From Acidaminococcus timonensis (lineage in GTDB: Bacteria; Bacillota; Negativicutes; Acidaminococcales; Acidaminococcaceae), in the NCBI RefSeq assembly GCF_900106585.1, contig NZ_FNWH01000005.1:62001-126000 (forward strand): DNA of 64,000 nt, given 5' to 3'. Below are positions 8,753 through 55,743 of the stretch, in pieces (positions within the stretch are counted from its first letter, which is position 1; each line of letters begins with the position of its first letter). The position numbers and the translations under genes were made by a program. Below the pieces are notes generated by a model. The model was not told where the DNA came from and did no database searches. It saw only the letters and a list, made by a program, of their open reading frames with translations.

Positions 8753-8771
8753 TTTGCCTTCTTGTCGTCCT

Positions 8772-41318: not shown

Positions 41319-42080
41319 TTATCGCGCCTCCCGTTCCAGTTCCTGCACCGTCACTCTCGGGTGACGCCACTGGTCTTCCTTGAGTACCACCCGGCCCCGC
41401 ACGGTGATGGCCTGGTACGGGCAGCCGTGGAGGCAGGCCAGGCACTGGATGCAGTCCTTCCCCATGACGGCCGCTTTCTCTCCCATCGTGATGTTCTGCT
41501 GCGGGCACGGCCGCACACATTCGCCGCATTTTTTGCACCGGTCCGGATCCACCTGGATGCGCATGTACCAGTCGCCGATGGCGTGGCCGATGGGATTGTC
41601 GAACAGGCTGGCCATGAGGGACCCGGTTTCCAGGCTGTGATCTTCTTTCCGGTTCCGGATGGCTTCGACCGCTTCCTTCACTACTTCCGGTTCCTTGTCC
41701 AGCTTGTGCAGATCGTAGCCGATGTGGGACCTGCCGCAGATGGTGCTGTTGGCGATGAGAGGCACGGCCCGGCTCCAGGAAAGCCTGCAGCCCTGCGCCT
41801 GCAGCAGGTTCTGCAGGGTCCGGAACGTGCGACCCCAGGAACTGCCGCAGGTGGCCAGGGCATAGATATAGGCGTCTTTGGGAAACTCATGGGTACGGAC
41901 GAATTCTGCCACGTTCACCGGTACATCCCCATAGAACACCGGGAACACCAGCCCGATGGTTTCGCCCTGCAGAGCTTTCTCGCTAACCCGGGTGATGGAC
42001 TGGAAGGAATCCTCCAGAGCCTCGCCCAGCTGCTTTGCCATGGCCAGGGAATTCCCCGTGGCCGAAAAATAATAGATCAT
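41319..42080 (-). CDS. EFR1-family flavodoxin-ferredoxin fusion protein
   Basis: The 253-residue protein joins an N-terminal flavodoxin-like domain (YYFSATGNSLAMAKQLGEAL, FPVFYGDVPVNVAEFVR) to a C-terminal 2[4Fe-4S] ferredoxin (CKKCGECVRPCPQQNI and CIQCLACLHGCPYQAI, near residues 185-235). It probably shuttles electrons between low-potential carriers in the cytosol. GGGGAG precedes the start. It is transcribed with the HD hydrolase gene. Confidence 0.9.
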   Translation of the reverse strand: MIYYFSATGNSLAMAKQLGEALEDSFQSITRVSEKALQGETIGLVFPVFYGDVPVNVAEFVRTHEFPKDAYIYALATCGSSWGRTFRTLQNLLQAQGCRLSWSRAVPLIANSTICGRSHIGYDLHKLDKEPEVVKEAVEAIRNRKEDHSLETGSLMASLFDNPIGHAIGDWYMRIQVDPDRCKKCGECVRPCPQQNITMGEKAAVMGKDCIQCLACLHGCPYQAITVRGRVVLKEDQWRHPRVTVQELEREAR

Positions 42081-42146: not shown

Positions 42147-42177
42147 AGGAGACTGTGAAAACTCTTCACAGTCTCCT
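42147..42177 (-). terminator. Terminator of the MerR-controlled exported-enzyme operon
   Basis: Stem AGGAGACTGTGAA / TTCACAGTCTCCT followed on the minus strand by TTTTTTC. It lies just past the double-CMD gene. Confidence 0.9.
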
Positions 42178-42183
42178 GTTCCT

Positions 42184-43044
42184 TTATTTCTCCGCAAACA
42201 CTGTATTGGCGTTCTTCAGACAGTTCAGGGTCCGCGGGAATCCAATATAGGGATTCATCACGGTGATCACCCCGATGACCTCTTCTTTGGAGGCCCCGGC
42301 GGCCAGCAGACCCCGTACATGGGAAATGAACTGGGGCTCACCGGTCCCCAGGGTCCCGATGGCAGCCACTGTGATCATTTCCCGGGTCTTCAGATCCAGT
42401 GTCTTCCGGGTATAGATATCCCCGAAACAGAAGGCAGACAGATCATCCTGCAGGTGCTTCTGTTCTTCCGGGGTGTTGGCCCGCATCTGGTTGATCCGTT
42501 CCCCATAGGTCCCCACCTGGAAGGCCAGACCTTTGTCGAACCGGTCTTCATCCGTGGTGGTTCCGTCCGCCGGCAGAGGCAGGGCCACTCCATTTTTGCG
42601 GAATACGCCATTCACAGTCGTCATGGCGTCCGCCACCCGGCCGAAACCGATATAGGGTGCCAGCTGATACACAGTTTCCCGGATTTCCAGGGGACTGACC
42701 CCATCCTGCAGGGCTCCCTGCACATTTTTATCGAGAAGACTCTGGTTCTGCTGGGTCACCAACACCGCCAGGGTAAGCAGATGCTGTTCCCGGCTGGGCA
42801 GTTTGGCCTGCCGGGCAATATCGCCATAGATATATTCCTTCAGCATGGCATCCAGTTCCGGATCGGTCTTTTCCAATCCGGTTGTCTGTCGTCCCATCAT
42901 CTTTTCATAGGTTTTCCGGGCAGCAGCCGCCCGGTCGTATCCACTCAAGGTACTTTCTGCTGCCAGTGCCATTCCACTGCCTCCCAACATGCCCACAAGA
43001 GTCAGGCCTACGGCCAGTCTTTTCCATAAAGTTGTCTTTTTCAC
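42184..43044 (-). CDS. Exported protein with two carboxymuconolactone decarboxylase domains
   Basis: A GTG start at 43044 follows AAGGAG at 8 nt and gives 286 residues. A signal peptide is clear (LAVGLTLVGMLGGSGMALAA, cut near residue 29). Two CMD/AhpD-like domains follow: the first around LPSREQHLLTLAVLVTQQNQ...ETVYQLAPYIGFGRVADAM, the second around LDLKTREMITVAAIGTLGTG...ITVMNPYIGFPR. The AhpD CxxC is not present, so it is not an obvious peroxidase. The export signal is unusual, since most CMD proteins are cytosolic. It is the last gene of the MerR-controlled series and lies 12 bp from the alpha/beta hydrolase. Confidence 0.85.
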   Translation of the reverse strand: MKKTTLWKRLAVGLTLVGMLGGSGMALAAESTLSGYDRAAAARKTYEKMMGRQTTGLEKTDPELDAMLKEYIYGDIARQAKLPSREQHLLTLAVLVTQQNQSLLDKNVQGALQDGVSPLEIRETVYQLAPYIGFGRVADAMTTVNGVFRKNGVALPLPADGTTTDEDRFDKGLAFQVGTYGERINQMRANTPEEQKHLQDDLSAFCFGDIYTRKTLDLKTREMITVAAIGTLGTGEPQFISHVRGLLAAGASKEEVIGVITVMNPYIGFPRTLNCLKNANTVFAEK

Positions 43045-43056
43045 AGGACCTTCTCC

Positions 43057-44196
43057 TTATTTGGCCAGGCCTTTCTGCTCCAGCCACTTTTCCATCTGCT
43101 CCGCCACCTGCTGGTTGTTCAGGTCACTCATCAGGAAATGGGTATTCCCCTTGATCCCGATATCCGGCAGATGGACCAGCGTGGCATCGCCGCCGTGGCG
43201 GTTCACCGCTGCCACGAATTTCTTTGCCATATCCATTTCACTGCGCCATTTATCCGGTCCCACTTCCGTCGTAGGTTTGTCCGCAATGTTATCTCCATAG
43301 AACAGGATCATAGGAACCCGGGTCAGTTTCAGGAAATCTTCCAGAGGCACACCCTTGGCCGTAGCCTGGACCGGTGCATAGACGGGGATTTCTGCCTTCG
43401 GCACTTCCCCTTCCGGGAACAGGAACGGACTGCCGCCCGGTTCGAAGGCCACGATGGCCTTTACCTTATCCGTACGGAACGGGGTTCTCCAGCCCACCGT
43501 ACCGCCCATGGAATGGGTCACCAGGATGGCCGGCCCCGTTTTCTCGAACAGAGCCGCCAGGGCATCTGCACTCACATCATCATCCAGCTGGCCGGTATAA
43601 GGCGTCCAGGTCCGCTGGAACTGGTTCACGCTTTCCGCATCTTTGGGGAACGCCGAATTGGCAAAAGCCACCGGCTTGCCATCCTTGAACGTCCCCAGCC
43701 GGCAGAGCATATACATGGTATGATCGGCATACATGGGATTGGCCGCATAGGGGTTCTTACCGTTATCGGCCTGCAGGGCCAGTCCGGCTTCCCCGATTCG
43801 GGGCTGATCCAGGATATAGGTAGTATACCCCTTCCGCAGGAAAATGGTCTGGAAGCCTTCCCGTCCATCCGGTGTGGTTTCCCAGGTCCGTTTGGTCTGG
43901 GCACCCCCATGCTGGAAAATCAGAGGGTATTTCCGGGGATGGACCGGTTTCTGGTATTCCACATAGGCATGGTCCCCATAAGCCGTCTGACCCTGGGGTT
44001 CCAGGAAATGTTCCGGAGAGAAGGTACAGTCATGGGCCAGTGTCTTTCCGCCCACTGTAAAACTTCCCTGTTCCGCGATGACAAGGGGAGCCTGGGGCTT
44101 TGCTGCCGCAGCTGCGAACCCGGACGGGACACAGGTCGCCAGGCTCATGGTCAGAGCCAGGGCCGCCATTGTTTTCTGCATCACTTGTTTTTTCAT
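43057..44196 (-). CDS. Exported alpha/beta hydrolase (esterase-like) 2
   Basis: The 379-residue protein has a Sec signal peptide (TMAALALTMSLATCVPSGFA, cut near residue 30). The alpha/beta-hydrolase nucleophile elbow is LVTHSMGGTVGW (near residue 225). An oxyanion region reads LIFQHGGAQTKRTWETTPDG, and the C-terminal LVHLPDIGIKGNTHFLMSDL carries the probable catalytic His. Its neighbour at 44209 is a paralogue with the same landmarks. It probably hydrolyses an ester or lactone in the periplasm. AAGGAAAG precedes the ATG. Confidence 0.87.
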   Translation of the reverse strand: MKKQVMQKTMAALALTMSLATCVPSGFAAAAAKPQAPLVIAEQGSFTVGGKTLAHDCTFSPEHFLEPQGQTAYGDHAYVEYQKPVHPRKYPLIFQHGGAQTKRTWETTPDGREGFQTIFLRKGYTTYILDQPRIGEAGLALQADNGKNPYAANPMYADHTMYMLCRLGTFKDGKPVAFANSAFPKDAESVNQFQRTWTPYTGQLDDDVSADALAALFEKTGPAILVTHSMGGTVGWRTPFRTDKVKAIVAFEPGGSPFLFPEGEVPKAEIPVYAPVQATAKGVPLEDFLKLTRVPMILFYGDNIADKPTTEVGPDKWRSEMDMAKKFVAAVNRHGGDATLVHLPDIGIKGNTHFLMSDLNNQQVAEQMEKWLEQKGLAK

Positions 44197-44208
44197 GGTT
44201 CTCTTTCC

Positions 44209-45285
44209 TTACTTTGTCAGGCCTTTTTCCTTCATCCACCGTTCCATTTCATTGGCCACCTGCCCGTTGTTCAGATCGCTCATCAGGAAGTGGGTATTGC
44301 CCTTGATGCCTTTTTCCGGAAGCAGGATCACCTGGGCGTCTCCGCCGTATTTCTTCATGACCGCTTCCCATTTCCGAGCCAGGTTCAGACGGACACGCCA
44401 GTTATCGAATCCCCAGTTCGCCAACGGTTTATCCCCGCCGGTAATGTTATCACCGAAATAGACCACCATGGGGATCTTCAGCAGCTTCTGGAACTGTTCT
44501 TTGCTGACAGCCATCCCTTTGGCTGGCCAGGGACTGGTGGTTTCCTCCACAGCCGGAACTTCGCCTTCCGGGAAGGGGAATGTCCCCGGTTCCAGGGCGA
44601 TGACACCCTTTACATGAGGAGACTGAGCAGCCACCAGCCAGCCCGGACCACCGCCGGCAGAATGGGTAATCAGTACCCCGTCTCCGGCTTTTTCAAAGAC
44701 GGCCGTCACCCCGTCTGCCACCAGTTTCCCGTCAAAGGACCCGGTATCCGGCGTCATGGTGCGGAAGAATTGGTCCAGGTATTCCTGGGTATGAGGGATG
44801 GCTGCATTGGGATAGATTTCCGGCCATTGGCCCATCCGAAAATTGTCGAACCAGAGCTGGTCATCCGGGGTTGCCGAAATGGTCGTCGGTACCGTGGACC
44901 GACCTGCCTTCCCTCTTCTGGGTTCATCCACCAGATAGGTCTTATACCCTTTTTCCAGGAAGATATTCTGGAAACCGCCCCGTCCATCCGGCGTAGTTTC
45001 CCAGGTTTTGGCACTCTGGCCATACCCGTGGAGGAACACCAGGGCATTCTTGTGGGCATGCTGGGGGACCTGATAGAACGCATAGGCGTGATCCCCGTGG
45101 AGCGTCTGCCCGCCCATGGCTTTGGGATCCGCATTCACGTTGAATTTTCCAGGCGCGGTAACGACTTTTCCGCCAGCCGCAAAGCTGCCCTGGTCCACGA
45201 TCGTCACCGGTTTCATGGCAAAGGCCGGTGCCGCCTGGAGCAGTCCCAGGAGGATGGCTCCGGTTACCCATCTGTTGATTTTCAT
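44209..45285 (-). CDS. Exported alpha/beta hydrolase (esterase-like) 1
   Basis: The 358-residue paralogue of the 43057 gene shares ALVFLHGYGQSAKTWETTPD, the nucleophile elbow LITHSAGGGPGW and the His region LLPEKGIKGNTHFLMSDLNN. Its signal peptide (TGAILLGLLQAAPAFA) is cut near residue 23. It is the first gene after the internal MerR-type promoter, so this gene, its paralogue and the CMD gene form a separately inducible sub-operon. Confidence 0.88.
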   Translation of the reverse strand: MKINRWVTGAILLGLLQAAPAFAMKPVTIVDQGSFAAGGKVVTAPGKFNVNADPKAMGGQTLHGDHAYAFYQVPQHAHKNALVFLHGYGQSAKTWETTPDGRGGFQNIFLEKGYKTYLVDEPRRGKAGRSTVPTTISATPDDQLWFDNFRMGQWPEIYPNAAIPHTQEYLDQFFRTMTPDTGSFDGKLVADGVTAVFEKAGDGVLITHSAGGGPGWLVAAQSPHVKGVIALEPGTFPFPEGEVPAVEETTSPWPAKGMAVSKEQFQKLLKIPMVVYFGDNITGGDKPLANWGFDNWRVRLNLARKWEAVMKKYGGDAQVILLPEKGIKGNTHFLMSDLNNGQVANEMERWMKEKGLTK

Positions 45286-45346
45286 ACTAGCCCTTCCTTT
45301 CTTTACAAAGCAATTGGATTTACTGTTATTTTTTCTTCTATTTTAC

Positions 45347-45377
45347 AGGATAGCACCCGGTAGTAACTACCGGTCAA
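45347..45377 (-). promoter_or_regulatory. MerR-type promoter of the hydrolase sub-operon
   Basis: On the minus strand TTGACC (45372-45377) and TATCCT (45347-45352) are 19 bp apart, the long spacing typical of MerR-activated promoters. The spacer and -35 form a near-perfect dyad, CCGGTAGT-T-ACTACCGG. The -35 overlaps the carboxylesterase codons I-D-R-stop. Confidence 0.88.
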
Positions 45378-47103
45378 TTGGTGGCAACGAATCTTGATAC
45401 CCAGGATCCACCAATTTCAGCAGAGCATAGTCCGGTGCATCAGCCAGCCGGACCTGGTCGTCAAAGATCATGACATTTTCCTGCTTCCGTGTAAACGGTT
45501 TCCATTCCGGGCCTCCCGGCACCGCCGGTTTTCCGGTCCGGGCAAAAGCAATCCAGGCATCGCTCATCTGATCCTGCAGTTTCCGGGCATCCGCCCCGTC
45601 TCCGATACGGGCTTCCAGTTTATCAATATTATGGAAGACAAAGGGAATCTCTGCCGTATGATAGGACATATAGGAGCCACCCATTACCGGAGAATCCCAG
45701 GTGAACAGATAGTTGTAGACAGGGGCCCCATCCTGGGCCACTTTGTGCCGGGCCACTTTCAGGATGGGCTGACGGATCATGGTGTCGATATACAGCGCAT
45801 CGGCTCGGGTCTTGTTGGGATAGGCTTTCAGGAACTCGCGCACCACGGCTTCTTTTTGTTCTCCATATTTTTTATCCAGAGCCGCTTCGATCTGCTGCTG
45901 ATTCCAGGAATAGATATTATCCGACTGGCTGTGCTGCAGGTCCAAAAGCAGCGTGAAATTGCTCCATTCGGTCCGGTTGCTCCCAATCAGCAGGGGGATG
46001 TCACGCCCTGCCTCCGCAAAGCCCTGGTCCGTGGCCGGGTTGGTGGGCAGGAAACTGCCATCGATGATCGGTTCCCAGCTGAGTCCGTACCCGCTGTGAT
46101 CCCACAGGGGTACATCGAATTCTTTGCCGGCCTGAGCCAGGGCTGCATCAGAAGCCTGGGCCAGCTTGTCATAGGGAATGGTTTCCAGCTGGTCCACCTG
46201 CGCCGGTGCCAGCCCCAGGTTCTGCAGGGTCAGCTGGGCAATCCGCCGGCTCTGCTGCCGGGGCATGAAGTACGGTCCCATGGATTCCACGGCACCGCTT
46301 TCCACGATGCCCTTCCGGAACAGCCCCTTGGCTTCCGGAGTGGTCATCAGAGCCAGGACTTTGGCTCCCCCGCCGGATTCCCCGAACAGGGTCACATTCC
46401 GGGGATCTCCTCCGAATTCTGCAATGTTATCCTGGACCCAGTGCAATGCATCCACCAGATCGGTGATGCCCACATTGGCCGAATCTTTGTATTTGGCTCC
46501 GTACTGGGAAAGATCCAGATGACCCAGCACATTCAACCGATGGTTGACGGAAACCACCACCACATCGCCCCGGCGGCTCAGGTTCTCCCCATCATAGGCA
46601 GGGGATTCTGCCGACGAACCGTTGGAAAAACCACCGCCGTGGAGCCAGACCATCACAGGCCGTTTCTTTCCATCATGGATTCCCGGCGTCCACACGTTCA
46701 AGTTCTGGCTGTTGTTGCTCATGGCGAAATCCCGTCCGGGTTCCACCCAGTTGCTGGTGGGGAAGCTTCCTTTTTCCTGCTGGGCAATGGGACCATACTC
46801 CACAGCCAGCCGAATCCCTTGCCAGGGTTTCACCGGTTTGGCCCGCTGGAACCGTTCCTCAGCCTCCGCATAGGGGATTCCATGGTATGTATAGATGCCC
46901 TGCCGTTTGTAACCCTGTACCAATCCTGCACGGGTCCTGGCCACCGCAATCCCGGGACCTGCCTGGAAGGGAACCTGCTGGATCCGTTTTGCAGGCTGTG
47001 AAGCAGCCCCTGCGGCCCAGACCGGAACAGGCGCCAGGATGCCACTAGAAAAAGCCAGCACACTGGCCAATATGCCCAAAGTTGCTTTTTCTCTGATTTT
47101 CAT
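45367..47103 (-). CDS. Exported type-B carboxylesterase
   Basis: The 578-residue protein has a signal peptide (LGILASVLAFSSGILAPVPV, cut near WAAGA). It shows type-B carboxylesterase hallmarks: LNVWTPG, the oxyanion VMVWLHGGGFSNGSSAES, the nucleophile elbow LFGESGGGAKV (G.S.G with Gly for the usual Ala) and a C-terminal FVFHNI region. A terminal YMSYHTAEIPF segment likely carries the His. It hydrolyses carboxylic esters in the periplasm. Its start lies 4 bp after the AEC carrier gene, so the two are co-transcribed. Confidence 0.92.
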   Translation of the reverse strand: MKIREKATLGILASVLAFSSGILAPVPVWAAGAASQPAKRIQQVPFQAGPGIAVARTRAGLVQGYKRQGIYTYHGIPYAEAEERFQRAKPVKPWQGIRLAVEYGPIAQQEKGSFPTSNWVEPGRDFAMSNNSQNLNVWTPGIHDGKKRPVMVWLHGGGFSNGSSAESPAYDGENLSRRGDVVVVSVNHRLNVLGHLDLSQYGAKYKDSANVGITDLVDALHWVQDNIAEFGGDPRNVTLFGESGGGAKVLALMTTPEAKGLFRKGIVESGAVESMGPYFMPRQQSRRIAQLTLQNLGLAPAQVDQLETIPYDKLAQASDAALAQAGKEFDVPLWDHSGYGLSWEPIIDGSFLPTNPATDQGFAEAGRDIPLLIGSNRTEWSNFTLLLDLQHSQSDNIYSWNQQQIEAALDKKYGEQKEAVVREFLKAYPNKTRADALYIDTMIRQPILKVARHKVAQDGAPVYNYLFTWDSPVMGGSYMSYHTAEIPFVFHNIDKLEARIGDGADARKLQDQMSDAWIAFARTGKPAVPGGPEWKPFTRKQENVMIFDDQVRLADAPDYALLKLVDPGYQDSLPPIDR

Positions 47104-47107
47104 GCTT

Positions 47108-48028
47108 TCACCCCAATCCCACAGCCAGTGCCACCAGCGGCATGGTCACCACAGCCGCACCCGTAGTCAGTGCCACACACTGGACGGAAACCGGATAGGC
47201 TTCTTTATTATACAGAGCTGCCAGGAGCGGCAGTACATTGCCCGAAGGGGTAGCCAGCGTAGCCATACAGGTGGCCAGCAGGTACGTATTGTCCACAAAA
47301 GCTTTCAGGGCCAGCGTCCCCACAATGGGCAACACCAGCATCTTGATTCCAGTATAAACCAGGATCCGCCGGTTCACCATGGTTTTCCAATCCGTTTCCA
47401 GAAGGGCCGCCCCCAGCAGCATCATGGCCAGAGGGCCCGTCATGCTTCCCAGCATCCGGATGGAAGCCGTCAGTACATAGGGCAGCTTGATCTGCCCCAG
47501 ATAAATGATCAGGGCCAGTACACAGGAAATCATCCCCGGATTCAGGAGATTCTTCAGCCGGAAGGGTTCAGCCTGTGCACCTCCGCCCTTGATCGTCTGG
47601 ATTACATAGGAAAAGAAGAGCAGATTGAAAGGAATCAGCAGCAGCGTCATATAGATCAGGGCATCTTTTCCGTAAATCCCGTCGATCATGGGAACGCCCA
47701 TAAAACCGATGTTGGTGAAGACCGTCATTACATTGACCATCCCCTTCTCAGCTTTGGGGAAGCCCAGCAGTCGGGGCAGTACCCGGGCCACCACCAGCAG
47801 GACCGCCAGCATCCCCAGGATCACGCCCCCTGCCTGGAGCAGTTCAGGGCCAGCGATATGCGGTCCTTCTCCGGTAACTCCGGACAGGATGATGGCCGGA
47901 TAGGCGATATTCAGCACCAGCTGAGTAATCTGGGCCTGGTTTTCCTCAGTGAGGATCTGCTTTTTCCGTGCCCAGGCTCCCACCAACATCAACAATACAA
48001 AAATAATCATTTGCTGCAATACAAGCAT
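47108..48028 (-). CDS. AEC-family (auxin efflux carrier) transporter
   Basis: The 306-residue inner-membrane protein has about ten hydrophobic helices. The N-terminal MIIFVLLMLVGAWARKKQIL, a central conserved region with NIGFMGVPMIDGIYGKDALI and C-terminal ATLATPSGNVLPLLAALYNK are typical of AEC/bacterial malate-type carriers. It could export or import an organic acid made or used by the exported esterases. AGGAGG precedes the start. It sits between the cupin and the carboxylesterase genes. Confidence 0.9.
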   Translation of the reverse strand: MLVLQQMIIFVLLMLVGAWARKKQILTEENQAQITQLVLNIAYPAIILSGVTGEGPHIAGPELLQAGGVILGMLAVLLVVARVLPRLLGFPKAEKGMVNVMTVFTNIGFMGVPMIDGIYGKDALIYMTLLLIPFNLLFFSYVIQTIKGGGAQAEPFRLKNLLNPGMISCVLALIIYLGQIKLPYVLTASIRMLGSMTGPLAMMLLGAALLETDWKTMVNRRILVYTGIKMLVLPIVGTLALKAFVDNTYLLATCMATLATPSGNVLPLLAALYNKEAYPVSVQCVALTTGAAVVTMPLVALAVGLG

Positions 48029-48064
48029 CGTTCCAAATCCTCCTGCATTCTGTTTCTGTGATTT

Positions 48065-48604
48065 CTAATTTGCCAGCGCTTCGTATGTTTTTTCATCTAC
48101 AGGTTCCAGCCACTGGGTGGTGTGGAAACCGGGTTCCATAACGACCACATGCTGAAAATTCTGTCCCGGTGCCGCGCCATGCCAATGTTTCACACCTTCC
48201 GGTATGGTTACGGTCTGTCCCGGTTCCAGTTTCTGGGGCTTCTGTCCCCAAATCTGGTAATACCCATGACCGGAAGTTCCCACCAGGATCTGGCAGGTCC
48301 CAAAATGACGATGCCAGTAGGTGTGGGATCCCCGGTAAAAGGTCACATTCACCACCGGGACTTTCTTCCCATCCGTCAGGGCAGCCGCATAACTGTAGCC
48401 GGTAAAATGGGCCGCATTCCCTGCGTTATACATCCCCACCGGAAAAATGGCACCTTTGGAATGTCTCAGTTCTTTTTCCACCTGAGCAATGGCCGGAGGG
48501 GCAGCCAGCGCCCTTGCTTCCGCTGCCGCACTTCCCAACCGTACCCCCAGGACCGTCATCACACTGAGGACCACCGCCATCCCCGCCATCTGCCGCATCA
48601 TCAT
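48065..48604 (-). CDS. Exported cupin-domain protein
   Basis: The 179-residue protein (three adjacent ATG codons, first at 48604) has a signal peptide (VVLSVMTVLGVRLGSAAAEA). A single cupin barrel follows: motif 1 includes GSHTYWHRHFGTCQILVGTS with metal-binding His and motif 2 includes IPEGVKHWHGAAP. Similar cupins occur next to CMD proteins and oxidoreductases in other bacteria, often as (S)-like small-molecule enzymes or sensors. The substrate is unknown. It is the first gene after merR. Confidence 0.86.
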   Translation of the reverse strand: MMMRQMAGMAVVLSVMTVLGVRLGSAAAEARALAAPPAIAQVEKELRHSKGAIFPVGMYNAGNAAHFTGYSYAAALTDGKKVPVVNVTFYRGSHTYWHRHFGTCQILVGTSGHGYYQIWGQKPQKLEPGQTVTIPEGVKHWHGAAPGQNFQHVVVMEPGFHTTQWLEPVDEKTYEALAN

Positions 48605-48657
48605 TCCCTTTTTTCTCTTTCCTTTCCTTCAGCCCGGGAGCTTTGTTCCCTTCAGTC

Positions 48658-49068
48658 TCATTCCTGCCCTTCGTCCTCTTCCGGCAGAAGATTGCTTGTG
48701 TATTTGATTTTTCCCGTCTGGACGTCCTGATAGAATTTCTCTTTTTTCTCGATATATTTGATGGACTGTTCCACCTGCCGGATCTGGGCTTTTAAATCCT
48801 CCTTCTTTTTCTGGAGCATCGTCATCCGTTCCGGGATGGATTTTTTCCCTTCCAGGCACATGACCATATAATCCCGCATCTCCTTGATACCCATCCCGCA
48901 ACCTTTCAGGCATTTCAGGCTCTTGATCCAGCCTACAGCCCGATCATCGAAGATCCGCCGGTTCAGCCGATCCCGTTTCAAATTGGGGACCAGTCCTTCG
49001 TTGCAATAGAATTTCAATGTTTCATAAGGTAATCCGGATGCCTCGCATGCCTGTTTCATGGTGTACAT
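48658..49068 (-). CDS. MerR-family regulator (AdhR/NmlR-like)
   Basis: The ATG at 49068 (MYTMKQACEASGLPYETLKF) follows AAAAGGAG and gives 136 residues. The N-terminal winged HTH reads YTMKQACEASGLPYETLKFY...RIFDDRAVGWIKSL, then a long coiled-coil dimerisation helix (MTMLQKKKEDLKAQIRQVEQ) and a short C-terminus. Small MerR proteins of this AdhR type respond to aldehydes or electrophiles in Bacillus and control alcohol dehydrogenases and CMD proteins. Three 19-bp-spaced promoters in this locus are its probable targets, including its own. Confidence 0.9.
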   Translation of the reverse strand: MYTMKQACEASGLPYETLKFYCNEGLVPNLKRDRLNRRIFDDRAVGWIKSLKCLKGCGMGIKEMRDYMVMCLEGKKSIPERMTMLQKKKEDLKAQIRQVEQSIKYIEKKEKFYQDVQTGKIKYTSNLLPEEDEGQE

Positions 49069-49102
49069 TACCGCCATCTCCTTTTGTTATTAATTAATTT
49101 TT

Positions 49103-49133
49103 ACTTTAGCATCCGGTGCGAACAACCGGTCAA
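49103..49133 (-). promoter_or_regulatory. MerR-type promoter of merR-cupin-AEC-carboxylesterase
   Basis: On the minus strand TTGACC (49128-49133) and TAAAGT (49103-49108) are 19 bp apart with the dyad ACCGGTTGTTCGCACCGG between and over the -35. Confidence 0.87.
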
Positions 49134-49304
49134 GGGGCTTTTCAAGGCCCCATGCCGATTCATCAGTACCAAACATCGGGAAAGTGGAGAGTCCTTCGCC
49201 CCGATGCATCTTCTATTATAAAGAAATCCTTCTCATACAGAAGATTCCCCTGATTAACAGGCACGAACCTTCAGGTTTCTACTGAAGGTTTCACAAAAAA
49301 AATC
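49134..49304. other. Spacer between divergent MerR-controlled promoters
   Basis: Apart from a perfect 9-bp hairpin (AACCTTCAG-GTTTCTA-CTGAAGGTT, 49266-49290) nothing gene-like is seen. The hairpin has no T-run; it lies 15 bp before the alcohol dehydrogenase -35. Confidence 0.5.
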
Positions 49305-49335
49305 TTGACCGGTAGCGACTCCCGGGTACTACAGT
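49305..49335 (+). promoter_or_regulatory. MerR-type promoter of the Fe-alcohol dehydrogenase
   Basis: TTGACC (49305-49310), 19 bp, TACAGT (49330-49335). The spacer dyad reads CCGGTAGCGACTCCCGGGT. Confidence 0.87.
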
Positions 49336-49386
49336 GATAACAGCGAAAGCAAAACCACACAGACTTTACAGAAAGGAACATCCATC

Positions 49387-50547
49387 ATGAATCCATTTAC
49401 GTATGCGTATCCTGTCAAGACTTATTTCGGGAAAGGCGCTGCTGCCCAATCCCTGCCCGGTGAGCTGGCCAAGGTCGGACCCAATGTACTGCTGGCTTAC
49501 GGAGGCGGTTCCATCAAGCGGAATGGTGTCTATACCCAATTGACCCAGCTGCTGGAAGCCGCCGGAAAGACAATCGTGGATTTTTCCGGAATCATGTCCA
49601 ACCCCACCTACGAAAAAGTCCAGGAAGGCGCCCGCCTGGCCCGGGAAAAGAAAATCGACTTCATTCTGGCTGTGGGCGGTGGTTCCGTCATCGACTGCTG
49701 CAAAATCGTCTCTGCCCAGGCCCTCCTGGACGAGGATATCTGGGACTATGAATACAGCAAGAAACAGGTTCCCAGCCAATTTATCCCCATGGGAGCCGTG
49801 GTCACGGCCTTCGGAACCGGAGCCGAAATGAACAACGGGGCCGTCATCACCCACGAAGCCAAAAAGAGCAAGTCTCCCCTGACCGGTTCCTACTATCGGT
49901 TCGCCATCCTGGATCCGGCCTATACGCTGACCATGCCGCTGGAACAGGTGATTTCCGGTGCTTTCGACTCTCTGAGCCACTGTATGGAAACCTACCTGGG
50001 CAATCCTCGTACGGTCAATCTTTCGGATGAAATCAACGAAGCCTGCCAGCGGAATATCATCCGCAATATCCGTCAAACCCTGAAGGATCCCCAGGATATC
50101 GAAGCCCGCAGCGAACTGGTATGGGCCGCCGCCATGGCTGAAAATGGCATCCTGAAGATCGGGAAACAGGGCGATTTCCAGTGCCATATGCTGGAACACC
50201 AGCTGGGAGCCTACACCAACTGTAATCACGGCAGAGGCCTGGCCGTACTGCATCCGGTACTGTACCGGCATTATCTGCCGTCTGCTGCGGCGCAATTCGC
50301 CCGTCTAGCAACGAATGTATGGCAGATCCCTGCCGAAGGCAAGAACCAGGAAGCCCTGGCAGAAGCCTTCCTGGAAAAGCTGGCCGCCTTCATCAAAGAA
50401 ATCGGCCTGCCCACCAATTTCCGGGAGCTGGGCATCCCTGCGAACACCGATCTGAAAGCGGTAGCTGATACCACCATCCTGACCGGTGGATGCTGCAAAG
50501 CCTTCAGCCGGGAAGAACTGCTGCAGGTACTGGAAGAATGTAAATAA
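49387..50547 (+). CDS. Iron-containing alcohol dehydrogenase (YqhD/BDH type)
   Basis: The 386-residue protein has AGAAAGGAACATC before the ATG. The N-terminal Rossmann part contains LLAYGGGSIKRNGVY and AVGGGSVIDCCKIV. Metal ligands are visible in DSLSHCMETYLG and HMLEHQLGAYTNCNHGRGLA (His-x3-His with a later His). It is of the NADPH-dependent YqhD/butanol-dehydrogenase kind, which reduces many short aldehydes in the cytosol. Its promoter has the MerR 19-bp spacing, linking it to the divergent operon. Confidence 0.93.
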   Translation: MNPFTYAYPVKTYFGKGAAAQSLPGELAKVGPNVLLAYGGGSIKRNGVYTQLTQLLEAAGKTIVDFSGIMSNPTYEKVQEGARLAREKKIDFILAVGGGSVIDCCKIVSAQALLDEDIWDYEYSKKQVPSQFIPMGAVVTAFGTGAEMNNGAVITHEAKKSKSPLTGSYYRFAILDPAYTLTMPLEQVISGAFDSLSHCMETYLGNPRTVNLSDEINEACQRNIIRNIRQTLKDPQDIEARSELVWAAAMAENGILKIGKQGDFQCHMLEHQLGAYTNCNHGRGLAVLHPVLYRHYLPSAAAQFARLATNVWQIPAEGKNQEALAEAFLEKLAAFIKEIGLPTNFRELGIPANTDLKAVADTTILTGGCCKAFSREELLQVLEECK

Positions 50548-50550
50548 GTA

Positions 50551-50578
50551 CATAAAAAATAAGGAGTTGTGAATGATT
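50551..50578 (+). terminator. Left half of a terminator split by the IS3-family element
   Basis: AAAAAATAAGGAGTTGTGAATGAT pairs with ATCATTCCACAGCTCCTTAT past the right end of the element (52114-52139), allowing two mismatches or bulges. Together they resemble the other terminators in the window; the IS sits in the loop. Confidence 0.8.
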
Positions 50579-50584
50579 TCTGAG

Positions 50585-50635
50585 CTGACCCCCAATTGTT
50601 AGACCAAAAATCTAACAATTGGGGGTCAGTTTTTT
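50585..50635 (+). terminator. Hairpin plus T-run at the left end of the IS3-family element
   Basis: A perfect 19-bp stem (CTGACCCCCAATTGTTAGA / TCTAACAATTGGGGGTCAG) with a CCAAAAA loop is followed by six T and then directly by the orfA ATG. The only Shine-Dalgarno-like G-run (50621-50625) is inside the stem. Confidence 0.85.
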
Positions 50636-51214
50636 ATGGCAAAATACAGCTATGAATTTAAGAAAAAAATAGTACTGGAATACTTGAACAGTGACGAAGG
50701 GTGTATTTCTATTTCACGTAAATATGGGATGACAAGCAGCAGCCAGCTGCTAAAGTGGGTTTCTGCTTACAAGGCATTTGGAGATAATGGACTGAAGAGA
50801 TCCCGCTCTCAAAAAATATACTCTTTCAAAGAAAAACTTTCTGTGGTAGAGTCTTACTTAACAAATGAAATCTCATATCAGGAACTGGCAATTCAAGTAG
50901 GGATCAATAATCCATCCATGATTGCCAGATGGGTCAACGAATTCAAGATTGCGGGGCCGGAAGCGTTACGGTCACATAAAAAAGGCAGGAAGAGAACTTT
51001 GAACAAATCTCAAACCAAAAAAACAGATACCCAGGTTCAGCAGCCGATGGTCGACATCAGTGTGGAACATGTCCAGGAGTTAGAGGATGAAAATCTTAAA
51101 CTCCGTATAGAGAATGCTTTTTTAAAAGAACTGAGGAGACTGCGTTTAGAGGACGAAGCAAAAATGAGAGAGTTGCGAAAATCATCTCCAGTCTCCGAAG
51201 ATCATTCAAATTGA
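50636..51214 (+). CDS. IS3-family OrfA (IS150-like)
   Basis: The 192-residue protein has two N-terminal helix-turn-helix units (KYSYEFKKKIVLEYLNSDEG with ISISRKYGMTSSSQLLKWVS, and SFKEKLSVVESYLTN with YQELAIQVGINNPSMIARWV). A Lys-rich linker and a coiled-coil C-terminus follow. It binds the element ends. Runs of A near 51160-51180 (GCAAAAATG, GCGAAAATC) are candidate sites for the -1 frameshift that would make the OrfAB transposase. Confidence 0.93.
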   Translation: MAKYSYEFKKKIVLEYLNSDEGCISISRKYGMTSSSQLLKWVSAYKAFGDNGLKRSRSQKIYSFKEKLSVVESYLTNEISYQELAIQVGINNPSMIARWVNEFKIAGPEALRSHKKGRKRTLNKSQTKKTDTQVQQPMVDISVEHVQELEDENLKLRIENAFLKELRRLRLEDEAKMRELRKSSPVSEDHSN

Positions 51215-52056
51215 AAGACCTTCTCTCCTATACTCAAATGCCCAAAGCGACCTATATGTACTGGCAGAAACGGTTTGACCGCGTGAATCCAGACCAGGAA
51301 GTAGAGGATAAAATACAGGAAATCCGCAGCCAGCATAAAGATTATGGATATCGGTGCATGACCGGTGAGCTGAAGAATCAAGGGATTTGCGTGAACAAGA
51401 AGAAAGTTCAACGTATCATGCAGAAACTGAGCCTTCAGGTAACATCCTTTACCCGGAAAAGCCGTAAATACAGTTCCTATAAGGGTAAGGTAGGGACCAT
51501 TGCTCCGAATAGAATACATCGTCGTTTTGAGACGAATATCCCACATCAGAAGATTACGACCGATACTTCAGAATTCAAATATTATGAAGTAGATACACAG
51601 GGACATCTGACCCTGCACAAGCTTTATCTGGATCCTTTCCTGGACATGTTCGATGATGAAATCATCAGCTATGGAATAGCCAAACGTCCTTCGGCTGAAA
51701 GCATACTGAAAGCTCAAGCTGAAGCAATCGAAATTACTGCTGATTGTCCATATCGAAGAACGTTTCACTCCGATCAGGGCTGGGCATACCAAATGAAGGC
51801 CTATACCAGGAAACTAAAAAAAGAACGAATTTTTCAGAGCATGTCTCGAAAGGGTAACTGTCATGATAACGCTGTAATGGAAAACTTTTTCGGCTTAATG
51901 AAACAGGAAATGTATTATGGAGTGATCTACTACAGCTACGAAGAACTAAAAGCCGCTATCGAACGATACATCAAATACTATAACGAGCAAAGGATCAAGG
52001 AAAAACTGGGCTGGAAAAGTCCTGTTCAATACAGGCTTTCTTTGCTGGCAGCATAA
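51160..52056 (+). CDS. IS3-family OrfB transposase (rve/DDE integrase core)
   Basis: The frame is open back to 51160 or beyond (K-N-E-R-V-A-K-I-I-S-S-L-R-R-S-F-K-L-K-D), so it is likely made as an OrfA-OrfB fusion by -1 frameshifting; a TTG at 51211 is the first independent start. The region has an HTH_21 segment (YGYRCMTGELKNQGICVNKK) and the DDE core: TDTSEFKYY, FHSDQGWAYQM and NCHDNAVMENFFGLMKQEM, in which the third acidic residue lies. All motifs are intact. Confidence 0.93.
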   Translation, partial: KNERVAKIISSLRRSFKLKDLLSYTQMPKATYMYWQKRFDRVNPDQEVEDKIQEIRSQHKDYGYRCMTGELKNQGICVNKKKVQRIMQKLSLQVTSFTRKSRKYSSYKGKVGTIAPNRIHRRFETNIPHQKITTDTSEFKYYEVDTQGHLTLHKLYLDPFLDMFDDEIISYGIAKRPSAESILKAQAEAIEITADCPYRRTFHSDQGWAYQMKAYTRKLKKERIFQSMSRKGNCHDNAVMENFFGLMKQEMYYGVIYYSYEELKAAIERYIKYYNEQRIKEKLGWKSPVQYRLSLLAA

Positions 52057-52113
52057 AAAAGTAACGAGACAGTAAAAACCATCTCGTTACTAAGGTCTAA
52101 CTTTTTGGGGTCA

Positions 52114-52139
52114 CATCATTCCACAGCTCCTTATTTTTT
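52114..52139 (-). terminator. Right half of the terminator split by the IS3-family element
   Basis: See 50551-50578. Its T-run remains attached to the 3' end of the LysR gene, but the matching arm is now 1.5 kb away, so termination of both flanking genes may be weakened. Confidence 0.75.
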
Positions 52140-53060
52140 ATCCTTTTTCTGTCCGATGCCCAGCACCGTACGCAGGGCTTTCAGGAAATGCTTGACCGCT
52201 TCCGACGGCTGGGGGTTATACAGGATGCCATAGGGCATTTTATACTCCCAGTCCACAGTGCGGCTGGTCAGCAGGGGATGCGTGTTTTCCCACATGGGAA
52301 AGCCCACCAGCAGTTCTCCCTGGTTCACGCAGTTATTAAAGATTTCCAGGCTGTAAAAGGGGAAATTCCGCACTTTGATTCCCGGATGGTTCACCGTGAT
52401 ATCCCCCCGCAGTTTGTCCATCTGGCTGCTCCAGCCGGGCTGGATCATACACAGGGTCTGTCCCTCCAGATCCTCCCAGTGGAGCAGGGATTTCTTCGTC
52501 AGCGGGTGCATCACCGACATATAGATTTCCATGGGCTGATCCTGCAGGGGAAAGCCGGTGCAATAACTGTGTACATGGAACATGCCTTCATCATATACCC
52601 CTGCCACAACATCGATGTTCTGCCCCAGATTTTTCAGGATTTCCCGGGCATTGGCCGGTGTATTGTCATAGGGCACCAGATGGAACTGGATATCCGGACT
52701 CACTTCCTGGAGACTGGGCCACAGGTCCAGCAGGAAATCCACAGGTGTCATGGGACTGGCCCCCAGGCGGATCACCTGATGTTCCTTTTCCCGGGCTGCC
52801 TGAGCCCGCTGAATGGAATCATCGCAGTACTGTACCAGATATTTGGCATCCTGGAGCAGAGATTCCCCGGCCGTAGTCAGGGAAAGGCCTCTGTGAGACC
52901 GGTTAAACAACCGCAGATCCAGGGTATTTTCCAGCAGGTTGATCTGCTTGATGACCGCCGGAGGAGAGATGAACAGCTCCTCGGCCGCTTTATTGAAACT
53001 TCCCGCTTCTGCTACTTTGAGAAACGTCAGGAGCTGGGGATTGTACAAGGGGTTTGCCAT
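52131..53060 (-). CDS. LysR-family transcriptional regulator
   Basis: The 309-residue protein has the LysR HTH (LLTFLKVAEAGSFNKAAEE, then LFISPPAVIKQINLLE) and a typical effector domain (VIRLGASPMTPVDFLLDLWP, VGFPMWENTHPLLTS). It is encoded downstream of two aldo/keto reductase and flavodoxin gene pairs and may regulate them. A promoter-less copy of the MerR-type dyad lies about 45 bp upstream of its start, suggesting a link to the MerR regulon. Confidence 0.92.
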   Translation of the reverse strand: MANPLYNPQLLTFLKVAEAGSFNKAAEELFISPPAVIKQINLLENTLDLRLFNRSHRGLSLTTAGESLLQDAKYLVQYCDDSIQRAQAAREKEHQVIRLGASPMTPVDFLLDLWPSLQEVSPDIQFHLVPYDNTPANAREILKNLGQNIDVVAGVYDEGMFHVHSYCTGFPLQDQPMEIYMSVMHPLTKKSLLHWEDLEGQTLCMIQPGWSSQMDKLRGDITVNHPGIKVRNFPFYSLEIFNNCVNQGELLVGFPMWENTHPLLTSRTVDWEYKMPYGILYNPQPSEAVKHFLKALRTVLGIGQKKDKK

Positions 53061-53103
53061 ATTGTTTCATCCTTTCTAAGATCCTCTATACTCCTTATTC
53101 TCT

Positions 53104-53120
53104 CCGGTAGTAACTACTTC
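53104..53120 (-). promoter_or_regulatory. MerR-box-like dyad upstream of the LysR gene
   Basis: Plus-strand CCGGTAGTAACTACTTCC shares the 13-nt core CGGTAGTAACTAC with the MerR-type promoter at 45353-45371. Here TTGACC is replaced by AAGGAA, so it has the operator core but no recognisable -35. Confidence 0.6.
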
Positions 53121-53128
53121 CTTCTTTT

Positions 53129-53233
53129 TCAGCAGAATTTTCCGGTGGAAACGGTCAGAATCAGAATCATCCCGAATATGACCTTGAAGGTATATCCCTG
53201 CACTTCCATTCGGAAGCGATTCATAAAGCACAT
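53129..53233 (-). CDS. Putative 34-residue hydrophobic small protein
   Basis: A short frame starting at 53233 with an excellent AGAAAGGAG site encodes MCFMNRFRMEVQGYTFKV, then IFGMILILTVSTGKFC. The C-terminal half is one short transmembrane-like segment. It lies just downstream of the terminator that follows the aldo/keto reductase gene, and upstream of the LysR gene. It could be a small membrane protein or a translated leader. No homologue is recognised. Confidence 0.4.
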   Translation of the reverse strand: MCFMNRFRMEVQGYTFKVIFGMILILTVSTGKFC

Positions 53234-53255
53234 GATTTTCTCCTTTCTGTTATGA

Positions 53256-53283
53256 AAAAGGCTGCCTGCTAGGCAGCTTTTTT
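53256..53283 (-). terminator. Terminator after the aldo/keto reductase gene
   Basis: GCTGCCT-GCT-AGGCAGC stem with flanking A- and T-runs; it overlaps the stop codon region of the reductase gene. Confidence 0.82.
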
Positions 53284-54133
53284 ACGCGTGGATTTTCCAG
53301 TAATGCAGGTTCCGGATGAAAGTGGGATTGCTGACATCCACGATTTCACTGTGTCCAAGATCCAGAGAGCCTACCTGGGCCATTTCCTCTTCCGTCAGCT
53401 GGAAATTCCAGATATCCAAATTCTGTTTCATATATTGGCAATGGGTGGTTTTCGGGATAACGGAAATCCCCCGCTGCACATTCCAGCGCAGAGCCACCTG
53501 TGCCGGTGACTTGCCATACCGTCTCCCGATTTCCGCCAGCAGCGGATGGGAGAAAATGCCGAAATTTCCTTCTGCCAGGGGTGCCCAGGCCTGGGGCTGG
53601 ACCCCATATTCATTCATGGTGGTCAGAGCCATTTCCTGGGTAAGGAACGGATGGATTTCCACCTGGTCCACAGCCGGACGCAGCGTGACGCTTTCACAGA
53701 AATCGGTTAGCTGGGCCGGCGAAAAATTAGCTACACCGATGGCCCGGACTTTCCCTTCCTGATAGGCATCCTCCAGGGCTCTCCAGGCACCCATGGTATC
53801 TCCCAGAGGCTGGTGCAGCAGATACAGATCCACATATTCCTGGTCCAATTTTTCCAGAGATGTCTCAAGGCCTTTCTGGGCATTCTCATACCCATAATCC
53901 TGCAGCCACAATTTGGAAATGAGAAAGATTTCCTCCCGGGGAATCCCGCTTTTCCGGATGGCCCGGCCCACAGCTTCTTCATTGCCGTAGGCCGCTGCCG
54001 TATCGATCATCCGATAGCCGGCCTTCAGTGCCCCCCAGGTGGCTTCTTCACATTCCTGTGGATCCGTAATCTGGAAAACACCGAAGCCTTCCAGCGGCAT
54101 GGTGATTCCATTGTTCAAGGTTACTTCTTCCAT
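53282..54133 (-). CDS. Aldo/keto reductase (AKR5-like)
   Basis: Starting at 54133 (MEEVTLNNGITMPLEGFGVF) with TAAGGAG upstream, the protein has 283 residues. The tetrad is visible: Asp and Tyr in MIDTAAAYGNEEAVG, Lys in LISKLWLQDYGYE, His in YLLHQPLG. The C-terminal RWNVQRGISVIPKTT binds NADPH. It reduces aldehydes or ketones in the cytosol. It follows the 54145 flavodoxin-like gene by 11 bp, so the two form a pair. Confidence 0.92.
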   Translation of the reverse strand: MEEVTLNNGITMPLEGFGVFQITDPQECEEATWGALKAGYRMIDTAAAYGNEEAVGRAIRKSGIPREEIFLISKLWLQDYGYENAQKGLETSLEKLDQEYVDLYLLHQPLGDTMGAWRALEDAYQEGKVRAIGVANFSPAQLTDFCESVTLRPAVDQVEIHPFLTQEMALTTMNEYGVQPQAWAPLAEGNFGIFSHPLLAEIGRRYGKSPAQVALRWNVQRGISVIPKTTHCQYMKQNLDIWNFQLTEEEMAQVGSLDLGHSEIVDVSNPTFIRNLHYWKIHA

Positions 54134-54144
54134 ACTGTGTCTCC

Positions 54145-54594
54145 TTACCGGATTTTGGCCGCCAGTGCCTTTGCCTCTTTCTGATTGGTGGCCATCCCTT
54201 CGTAGGTCAAACCATACAACCGGGCAAAACGATCCATGGTATAATCTCCCGCTTCCAGCATCCATTTTTCCGGTGCAGCTCCCTGGAACAGGAAGAACAG
54301 TTTCCCTTTCAGGCTGCCTTCTTCCACAGGGCCATAAAACCGATCCAGCAGCGTACGGACGGATCCGCAGATATTATGCCAGTATACCGGAGAACCAATG
54401 ACCAGCACATCTGCTTCCCGGATCCGGTCCAGGACTTCTTCGAACTGATCTCCCGGCAGTTTCTGCCCAAACACATTGATCCGATACTCCACCAGATTCA
54501 GGGTCTTGTACTCATATTCTTTCAGTAGCGTCTGTGCCAGGGCTGCCGTGTTTCCATTGGCTTCCGGACTTCCATTGATAAATAAGATGTTCAT
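54145..54594 (-). CDS. Flavodoxin-like NAD(P)H-dependent FMN reductase
   Basis: The 149-residue protein starts MNILFINGSPEANGNTAALA, the FMN-phosphate loop. It continues with VLVIGSPVYWHNICGSVRTL and FFLFQGAAPEKWML, typical of the flavodoxin_2/NADPH-dependent FMN reductase group. It probably passes electrons to quinones, azo or nitro compounds. It is paired with the aldo/keto reductase at 53282. Confidence 0.87.
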   Translation of the reverse strand: MNILFINGSPEANGNTAALAQTLLKEYEYKTLNLVEYRINVFGQKLPGDQFEEVLDRIREADVLVIGSPVYWHNICGSVRTLLDRFYGPVEEGSLKGKLFFLFQGAAPEKWMLEAGDYTMDRFARLYGLTYEGMATNQKEAKALAAKIR

Positions 54595-54647
54595 ATCTAC
54601 TCCAACCTTTCTTGCTTGTTTTTCTGTGTTGCTTCGATTATAAAAGA

Positions 54648-54688
54648 AAACAGGCTGCTGCAGAAGTTTCTCTCCGGCAACAGCCTGT
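54648..54688 (-). terminator. Terminator of the 54734-55729 aldo/keto reductase gene
   Basis: Arms ACAGGCTG / CAGCCTGT with further imperfect pairing inside. On the minus strand a TTTTCTTTTAT run follows. Confidence 0.75.
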
Positions 54689-54733
54689 AACGTACAGGTT
54701 ATCAGTGTCTAGTACGCTGTCGATACTTCCTGT

Positions 54734-55729
54734 TCATTTGGAAACGAGCTTGCTGCCTCCGAACACCGGCAGTTCCATCCGGTTCAGTGCCCGGTCGATC
54801 CGGCTGATTTCCTCCGGAGAAAGGACCACCCGGGCCGCTTCGAAGTTCTCTTTCAGGCGGGAAACTTTCCGGGAGCCGGGGATGGGAATGATATACGGTT
54901 TCTTGCAGAGCATCCAGGCCAGGGACAATTGCCCCATGGAAACCTTTTTCTGGTTTGCCAGTTCTTGGAGCAGCTCCAGGAGCTGTTTTCCTTTTTCCTC
55001 TCCTTCTGCCGTAAACTGCGGCATCTTGGAACGGTAATCCTTCTTATCCGTAAACTGACCGGCCTTCGTGTATTTTCCTGTCAGGAAGCCGTTGGCCATG
55101 GGAGAAAAGGCCACAAAAGAAGCTCCCAGTTCTTCACATACCGAGAACAGGTTTTCATGCCAGCGAGCCATCATGGAGTACCGGTTCTGGATGGCTGCCA
55201 CCGGACAGACCGCATTGGCCCGACGCAGATAGTCCTCATTGGCTTCTGAAATTCCCCAGGCCCGGATCTTGCCTTCTTTTATCAGCCGGGCCATGGTATC
55301 CGCCACCACTTCCGGTTCCACAACAGGGTCGATCCGGTGCTGGTAATACACATCCACATAATCCGTGCCCAGCCGTTTCAGGCTGCCTTCCAAGCTTTTC
55401 CGGATGGCTTCCGGCCGGGCATCGGTGCTCAGAGATTGATCCGGATTGATCCGGATCCCCATCTTGGTGGCGATGACCACCTGCTGGCGTACCGGCGCCA
55501 GGGCCTTGCCCACCACTTCTTCGTTCCAGGATAGTCGCCCGTCAGCCAACGTCCCTTTATAGACTTCAGCCGTATCAAAGAAGTCGTATCCCATTTCCTG
55601 GGCCTGGCGCAAAACCGTGATGGTTTCCTGTTCATCCATGGCATAACCGTAGGCATGGCTGAAACCCATACAGCCCAGCCCCACCGGATTCACCCAGATA
55701 CCGCTTTTTCCTATCATTCTTTTTTGCAT
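54734..55729 (-). CDS. Aldo/keto reductase (AKR13-like)
   Basis: Starting at 55729 (MQKRMIGKSGIWVNPVGLGC) with AAGAGGTG upstream, the protein has 331 residues. Tetrad residues lie in FFDTAEVYKGTLADG (Asp, Tyr), VIATKMGI (Lys) and VYYQHRIDPVV (His). The GCMGFSHAYG and FVAFSPMANGFLTGKYTKAG segments are typical of the AKR13/YakC branch. It reduces carbonyls with NADPH. It is co-transcribed with the flavodoxin-family gene at 55744 (14-bp gap), so this second pair mirrors the first. Confidence 0.92.
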   Translation of the reverse strand: MQKRMIGKSGIWVNPVGLGCMGFSHAYGYAMDEQETITVLRQAQEMGYDFFDTAEVYKGTLADGRLSWNEEVVGKALAPVRQQVVIATKMGIRINPDQSLSTDARPEAIRKSLEGSLKRLGTDYVDVYYQHRIDPVVEPEVVADTMARLIKEGKIRAWGISEANEDYLRRANAVCPVAAIQNRYSMMARWHENLFSVCEELGASFVAFSPMANGFLTGKYTKAGQFTDKKDYRSKMPQFTAEGEEKGKQLLELLQELANQKKVSMGQLSLAWMLCKKPYIIPIPGSRKVSRLKENFEAARVVLSPEEISRIDRALNRMELPVFGGSKLVSK

Positions 55730-55743
55730 ATTGGACACCTCTT

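Follow-up and report, generated by a model that had tools for sequence, protein, structure and literature searches.

The window analyzed here, a stretch of 64,000 nucleotides of Acidaminococcus timonensis (contig NZ_FNWH01000005.1, positions 62,001 to 126,000), carries between positions 42147 and 50547 the gene of a short MerR-type regulator (merR), surrounded by genes for hydrolases, an alcohol dehydrogenase, a cupin, a CMD-family protein and a transporter (Table 1). An earlier note on this DNA had proposed that the MerR protein controls three promoters with an over-long spacer, and we found all three where it had placed them, with exactly 19 bp between the hexamers. Promoter 1 reads into merR and the cupin, AEC transporter and carboxylesterase genes; promoter 3 starts within the end of the carboxylesterase gene and serves hyd1, hyd2 and CMD, up to a terminator-like hairpin. 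Promoter 2 points the opposite way, into the gene of the iron-containing alcohol dehydrogenase (Fe-ADH). From the comparisons described below, one MerR regulator very probably acts through the long-spacer mechanism on each of the three promoters, and the best reading of the whole, by analogy with known MerR systems, would be a thiol-sensing activator of carbonyl/electrophile defence over three transcription units.

Table 1. Promoters, genes and terminator of the putative MerR regulon (positions in the window).
Feature	Position	Strand	Description and evidence	Sequence
Operator/promoter 1	49103-49133	-	TTGACC-19-TAAAGT, into merR-cupin-AEC-carboxylesterase; matrix score 23.5	TTGACCGGTTGTTCGCACCGGATGCTAAAGT
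Operator/promoter 2	49305-49335	+	TTGACC-19-TACAGT, into Fe-ADH; matrix score 36.6	TTGACCGGTAGCGACTCCCGGGTACTACAGT
Operator/promoter 3	45347-45377	-	TTGACC-19-TATCCT, into hyd1-hyd2-CMD; matrix score 41.6	TTGACCGGTAGTTACTACCGGGTGCTATCCT
merR, five-cysteine MerR regulator	48658..49077	-	Pfam MerR_1 47.5 bits (cut-off 21.6); five conserved Cys	
Cupin protein	48065..48604	-	Signal-like N-terminus; Pfam Cupin_2 28.8 bits; mandelonitrile-lyase model below cut-off	
AEC-type membrane transporter	47108..48028	-	Pfam Mem_trans 109 bits	
Carboxylesterase (type B)	45367..47103	-	Signal-like N-terminus; Pfam COesterase 307.6 bits; matches solved carboxylesterases	
hyd1, alpha/beta hydrolase	44209..45285	-	Signal-like N-terminus; PDB 4q34 E 8.7e-88; also 8gol, 7y0l, 1qlw	
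hyd2, alpha/beta hydrolase	43057..44196	-	Signal-like N-terminus; Pfam Abhydrolase_6 34.9 bits	
CMD-family protein	42184..43044	-	Signal-like N-terminus; Pfam CMD 109.4 bits	
Terminator-like hairpin closing the hydrolase unit	42147..42177	-	14-pair stem, then T run	
Fe-ADH, 386 aa	49387..50547	+	Pfam Fe-ADH 137 bits	

The three sites have the same 31-bp layout: TTGACC, the 19-bp spacer with a CCGGT...CCGG dyad in it, and TANNNT. The dyad is 17 bp long and odd-centred; its first two bases are also the final two of the -35 hexamer, and its centre lies 7 bp from the 3' end of that hexamer. A CCGGT...ACCGG-type dyad, announced by the earlier note for each spacer, is indeed present in all three but perfect only in the 45347 site (8 of 8 base pairs matching, against 6 of 8 at 49305 and 5 of 8 at 49103). 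The carboxylesterase reading frame closes with ATT GAC CGG TAG (45367-45378, minus strand), and these letters also serve promoter 3 as -35 hexamer and left half-operator, the stop codon (45367-45369) falling inside the left half-site. Pairwise, the sites are 68-77% identical over 31 bp and their flanks (60 bp each side) 20-33%; since these flanks do not align, the three sites are not a recent duplication.

The spacing alone was not significant: the loose pattern TTGACC-N17-21-TANNNT had 4 matches in the window for 1.47 expected, and 6 of 100 shuffles reached at least 4. The argument that three matches make chance unlikely thus holds if the dyad is counted and not for the spacing by itself, and it is the dyad and the comparison with relatives that carry the claim. 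Ordinary sigma-70 patterns with 16-18 bp showed no excess over chance between 41900 and 50700 (4 found, 5.6 expected). With at most three mismatches, the 31-bp pattern, which was derived from the three sites themselves, matched only these sites in the 2,297,059 bases of the window's own genome, and the backwards pattern used as a control matched once. The regulon is in this respect self-contained, as had been suggested. A 23-bp pattern gave 33 matches at the same tolerance and 24 in the control, those with 0-1 mismatch being the three sites. A candidate fourth site (C6:1423977-1423999, 2 mismatches; L004, L129) was dropped for want of an in-register TANNNT and with a matrix score of 6.8.

We then compared loci of MerR relatives taken from 61 genomes around the window (the seven close ones, L122-L128, with flanks) and from GTDB contigs (80 kept of 170). 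Spacer lengths were counted in 87 loci, in which the shorter L010-L016 were used; the later counts refer to 88 sequences, window included. TTGAC and TANNNT were most often separated by 19 bp (173 matches), followed by 17 bp (112), the eleven other lengths giving 32-63. The 19-bp matches yielded the consensus TTGACCGGTAGTWACTACCGG, whose symmetry was best about an odd centre, where a fraction of 0.52 of the pairs was complementary; no other centre tried exceeded 0.39. A weight matrix, built from 94 seed sites and re-estimated, found 151 matches at a threshold of 12 bits (152 on recount, from rounding), corresponding to 122 non-overlapping operator sites in 83 of the 88 sequences; the same 1.34 Mb reversed gave 3 matches, the best at 15.2. 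The search of genome and relatives proposed by the earlier note thus returned the three sites of the window's genome and these 122 sites in relatives and window, and the proposal of one MerR over three dyad promoters survived the comparison that could have overturned it, namely relatives keeping merR without such promoters. In 79 of the 88 loci an operator lay within 350 bp upstream of merR. Among the 90 sites so placed, 83 point away from merR and 7 toward it; promoter 1 of the window therefore has the rarer orientation. Mean information was 1.12 bits inside the 31-bp site and 0.19 and 0.17 bits in the flanks; conservation of the operator therefore ends at the edges of the site.

The same association was seen in loci that the training had not included. 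Searching 252 genomes of the class, in which the scores of the matches (E up to 1e-30) were bimodal (23 at 203-231 bits, 11 at 108-123, with one partial gene between the two groups at 141), provided 16 new loci, several from one genus and some near training genomes, so that they are not mutually independent. The operator was present within 350 bp upstream of merR in 14 of them (13 by script and L134 by re-check); L146 had none and L149 has just 93 bp upstream. With a loosened -35 box, the held-out loci showed a weak spacer peak at 19 bp (22 matches, against 4-19 at ten other lengths). In contrast, scanning the whole stretch of 28 loci of other MerR proteins (of which L021 and L153 are the same place) recovered the operator in none. 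Half of these loci (14/28) had a 19-bp promoter with a different dyad of 18 bp, often TTGACTTAGAGTNNACTCTAAG, even-centred in all cases and at the same centre in 13; 12 of the 14 lay within about 120 bp of merR. The 19-bp geometry is therefore shared with other MerR proteins, and the CCGGTAGT half-site and the dyad shorter by one base are specific to the clade studied here. Even-centred, often CTTAGAGT-like dyads were seen beside merR in L018, L019, L020, L022, L027, L029, L031, L032 and L034-L037, and the even-centred loci offer a contrast set for the evolution of the operator.

The regulator has the MerR fold, with a winged-helix N-terminus and a dimerisation helix, according to Pfam MerR_1, the predicted model (pLDDT, the predicted local distance difference test, 94; long last helix at 77-121) and the fold matches, the best of which were MerR proteins. 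The closest structure, both by sequence and by fold, was NmlR of Haemophilus influenzae (HiNmlR). The protein stands out by five cysteines, C11, C25, C56, C60 and C74, conserved in 88, 88, 83, 87 and 87 of the 88 orthologues, respectively, and found all together in 81. In 31 comparison proteins (those of the 28 loci of other MerR proteins and three solved chains), cysteine occurred at these positions 0, 0, 24, 4 and 10 times. In the model, helix 1 carries C11 and helix 3 carries C56, with C60 in the loop that follows helix 3; C25 lies close to where helix 2 ends, and helix 4 has C74 at its end. The recognition helix differed as well: Arg22, present in 31/31 comparison proteins, is Lys in 87/88 orthologues, and position 25 is Asp, Glu or Thr in the former and Cys in the five-cysteine clade. 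In the phylogenetic tree, whose comparison proteins are a small sample of relatives other than AdhR itself, the 102 five-cysteine proteins separated exactly from the 31 others, HiNmlR included (support 0.994, branch length 0.82).

These results bear on the name AdhR-like given to the protein by the earlier note, of which the fold and one shared cysteine stand: C56, present in the window protein and in 83/88 orthologues, corresponds to the conserved cysteine of the NmlR/AdhR group (Cys54 of HiNmlR, Cys52 of AdhR). Membership in the AdhR/NmlR subfamily was rejected, given the separate clade in the tree, the best-scoring named model (NmlR, 69.3 bits, short of the NCBIfam cut-off of 175) and the different operator, odd-centred and of the CCGGTAGT type here and even-centred in 14/28 loci, a contrast drawn with the 28 control loci rather than with published AdhR or NmlR operators. 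By these comparisons, the regulator belongs to a separate clade of five-cysteine MerR proteins, which has an operator and a set of targets of its own.

The known systems differ accordingly in part. HiNmlR (HI_0186; PDB 5d8c, 5d90, 5e01) is likewise a short MerR protein without a sensor domain and has the cysteine at C56, but lacks C11, C25, C60 and C74; unlike the window regulon, NmlR controls an adhC-estD pair of the Zn type, according to passages of PMC4776306. The same passages state that NmlR and AdhR respond to formaldehyde and other carbonyls through a conserved, required cysteine, and give adhA, the CMD-type yraC and yraA as the AdhR regulon. AdhR (YraB) of Bacillus subtilis, compared here by description and not by sequence or operator, thus governs an alcohol dehydrogenase and a CMD-type protein, as proposed for the Fe-ADH and CMD of the window; the alcohol dehydrogenase families differ, and the window adds many enzymes, the Fe-ADH, exported hydrolases, cupin and AEC carrier not figuring in the AdhR regulon as described there. 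Metal regulators of the CueR/CadR type use the same 19-bp promoter class, and passages of PMC5045206 put the dyad centre of CueR and CadR-PbrR sites 7 bp from the -35 box, as here; their targets are metal pumps, unlike those in the window, and they have a C-terminal cysteine loop. Such a loop, typical of SoxR and metal-sensing MerR proteins, was not found in the window protein, which has no cysteine after residue 74, and we rejected the metal-loop type on this basis.

Regarding the genes behind the operator, the sister genomes, which belong to the same genus as the window, were informative. L122 has two sites between Fe-ADH and merR, one in each direction, as in the window. In L123 one site each precedes hyd1, hyd2-AEC and CMD-cupin and one lies beside merR, and in both L127 and L128 hyd1 and CMD are each preceded by a site, with another before AEC in L127. 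Operators thus occur before Fe-ADH, hyd1, hyd2, CMD and AEC in these genomes, and therefore follow the genes rather than the map. In L124 we observed two identical operators (5902-5932 and 8730-8760) whose 60-bp downstream flanks are 95% identical; to judge from these flanks, the pair is a recent duplication of a promoter segment. Across all loci, a candidate first gene was assigned by heuristic to 116 of the 122 sites and labelled by similarity to seeds, which showed the operator ahead of gene families unrelated to one another: aldo/keto reductase (AKR, 25), Fe-ADH (12), DLH-type hydrolase (12), flavodoxin-like (8), hyd1 type (7), merR (7), FMN reductase (6), EFR1 (6), CMD (5), Hydrolase_4 type (4), AEC (3), cupin (3), carboxylesterase (2), hyd2 (1), flavin reductase (1) and unlabelled (14). 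A Pfam scan covered ten first genes; the eight of these that formerly lacked a label were a Zn-type alcohol dehydrogenase, an AKR with a ferredoxin domain, an FMN/FAD oxidoreductase, a flavin reductase, an alpha/beta hydrolase, a SnoaL/DUF4440 protein, an M16 peptidase (maybe a wrong pick) and one gene without a match. Hydrolases were the commonest first genes in Synergistota and same-class loci and reductases elsewhere, a division that uses crude labels (the AKR cluster includes flavodoxin genes) and groups assigned by record title and kinship. Families for metal efflux or storage were absent from the labelled first genes.

MerR proteins idle on or repress promoters with 19-20 bp spacers and activate them by kinking the DNA, as summarized in passages of PMC9909328, and binding, kinking and activation are ascribed to the present regulator by extension from this biology. 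A MerR dimer would sit on the 17-bp dyad (consensus CCGGTAGTWACTACCGG) within the 19-bp spacer of the three promoters, which the over-long spacer would hold weak in the resting state. Reactive carbonyls, quinones or another thiol-reactive signal would modify cysteines of the regulator, and the modified protein would kink the DNA, bringing both hexamers into register for RNA polymerase. Expression of merR with the cupin, transporter and carboxylesterase genes, of Fe-ADH, and of the two exported hydrolases with CMD would then rise. The target enzymes and the analogy with AdhR and NmlR suggest such an inducer, and we lean, if only slightly, toward a regulator that senses electrophiles.

The main competing explanation keeps the same regulator and operators and changes the signal to a nutritional one, plant phenolic esters or their products, in a catabolic rather than a defence regulon: the exported esterases would cleave the esters, the AEC carrier would move the acid, and CMD and Fe-ADH would process the products. 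Five controlled products do have signal-like N-termini, three of them being of esterase or hydrolase types, and the abundance of hydrolases in Synergistota and same-class loci points the same way; the dominance of reductases under the same operator elsewhere and the five fixed cysteines, which point to thiol chemistry, make this explanation unlikely. It is also rather improbable that the cysteines hold a metal ion or an Fe-S cluster, the protein being a novel kind of metal or redox sensor and the enzymes a secondary response. Five near-invariant cysteines would fit such a role, and all 81 orthologues scanned also matched Zn, Cd/Pb and Cu regulator models, although weakly; against it stand the labelled first genes, among which families for metal efflux or storage are lacking, and the cysteine-free end of the window protein, where MerR metal loops lie.

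Two further explanations concern the operators themselves. They could be real but belong to another regulator, such as the LysR protein encoded nearby at 52131-53060; this seems highly improbable given that the operator co-occurs with the five-cysteine clade in many genera and with none of the other MerR loci, and that the placing of a dyad within a 19-bp spacer is that of MerR regulators (passages of PMC9909328). Resemblance of the three promoters by chance, which the loose 19-bp pattern alone would allow, is refuted in practice by the uniqueness of the 31-bp pattern in the genome, the reversed control, the 83/88 sequences with the operator, the contrast between held-out and other-MerR loci and the conservation profile across the flanks.

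Several results weigh against a thiol-sensing MerR regulon as we read it. The matrix was trained on the same loci that supply most counts; in the window itself two of the three dyads are imperfect, and two of the 14 positive held-out loci score just 12.9 and 13.0. Five of the 88 sequences gave no match at the 12-bit threshold. Two of them, L097 and L115, show a variant dyad in the same 19-bp frame; for L126, L098 and L116, the 400 bp upstream of merR showed no operator. L126 and L146, both loci of one genus, lack the operator though a five-cysteine MerR is present. The regulator was found in five of eight same-genus relatives and is lacking in three. Lastly, the only two AKR genes of the window's genome have no operator, though AKR is the commonest target elsewhere. 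In L126 and L146, merR lies just downstream of an apparently co-directional gene; the operator there may be an altered one, or control may be exerted from another place.

To judge from their joint occurrence in many other bacteria, the regulator and its operator form a circuit more general than the window alone. As a tentative wider proposal, to be taken as a whole, a MerR branch of Bacillota, Synergistota and Eggerthellaceae (by record titles) might use five cysteines, all in its N-terminal, DNA-binding half, to sense electrophiles or a bound metal. With one of these cysteines at the end of the DNA-recognition helix, a single domain would both sense the signal and read the DNA, and one near-invariant operator would run carbonyl/quinone defence, some lineages having shifted to exported hydrolases. 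In the YqhC regulon of Escherichia coli, likewise, a YqhD-type Fe-ADH and an aldo/keto reductase together serve as an aldehyde defence; YqhC is an AraC-type regulator, with no long-spacer mechanism. No description of a five-cysteine subfamily was found in open-licence PMC papers (subscription papers and regulon databases being outside the scope), and for the operator core only unrelated-looking work on a Shewanella fatty-acid pathway surfaced in that literature. A stress circuit joining a cysteine-rich regulator with aldehyde-reducing and exported hydrolase enzymes is apparently so far undescribed. The regulator clade is here defined along with its operator and target list, in groups whose stress regulation has received little study. 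The 31-bp motif has almost no background and predicts regulon members directly, and promoters bearing it lend themselves to use as sensors. The five fixed cysteines of the DNA-binding half also raise the question of a redox switch, an electrophile trap or a metal site.

Concerning the annotation of the window genes, merR probably starts at 49068 rather than 49077, giving 136 aa, since a Shine-Dalgarno-like AAAGGAG lies at 49078-49084. The best NCBIfam model for Fe-ADH was PRK15138 (238 bits, cut-off 645), and hyd1 fell just under the cut-off of Pfam Abhydrolase_6. The signal-like N-termini were judged by eye. An outer membrane is likely since Omp85-type proteins are present in the genome; its marker LptD had no match there in a search that was positive in just 2 of 14 control genomes. 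The EFR1 ferredoxin gene at 41319-42080 was excluded as a regulon member, the hairpin at 42147-42177 intervening. On the other side, the stretch 52131-56361 (minus strand) contains the LysR-type gene (named by eye), the two AKR genes and a gene whose product resembles the FMN_red targets found elsewhere, and has no operator. Just downstream of Fe-ADH, a transposase-like gene pair (50552-52141, IS3 type by eye), with 20-nt inverted ends 95% complementary, divides the MerR regulon from the LysR/AKR genes.

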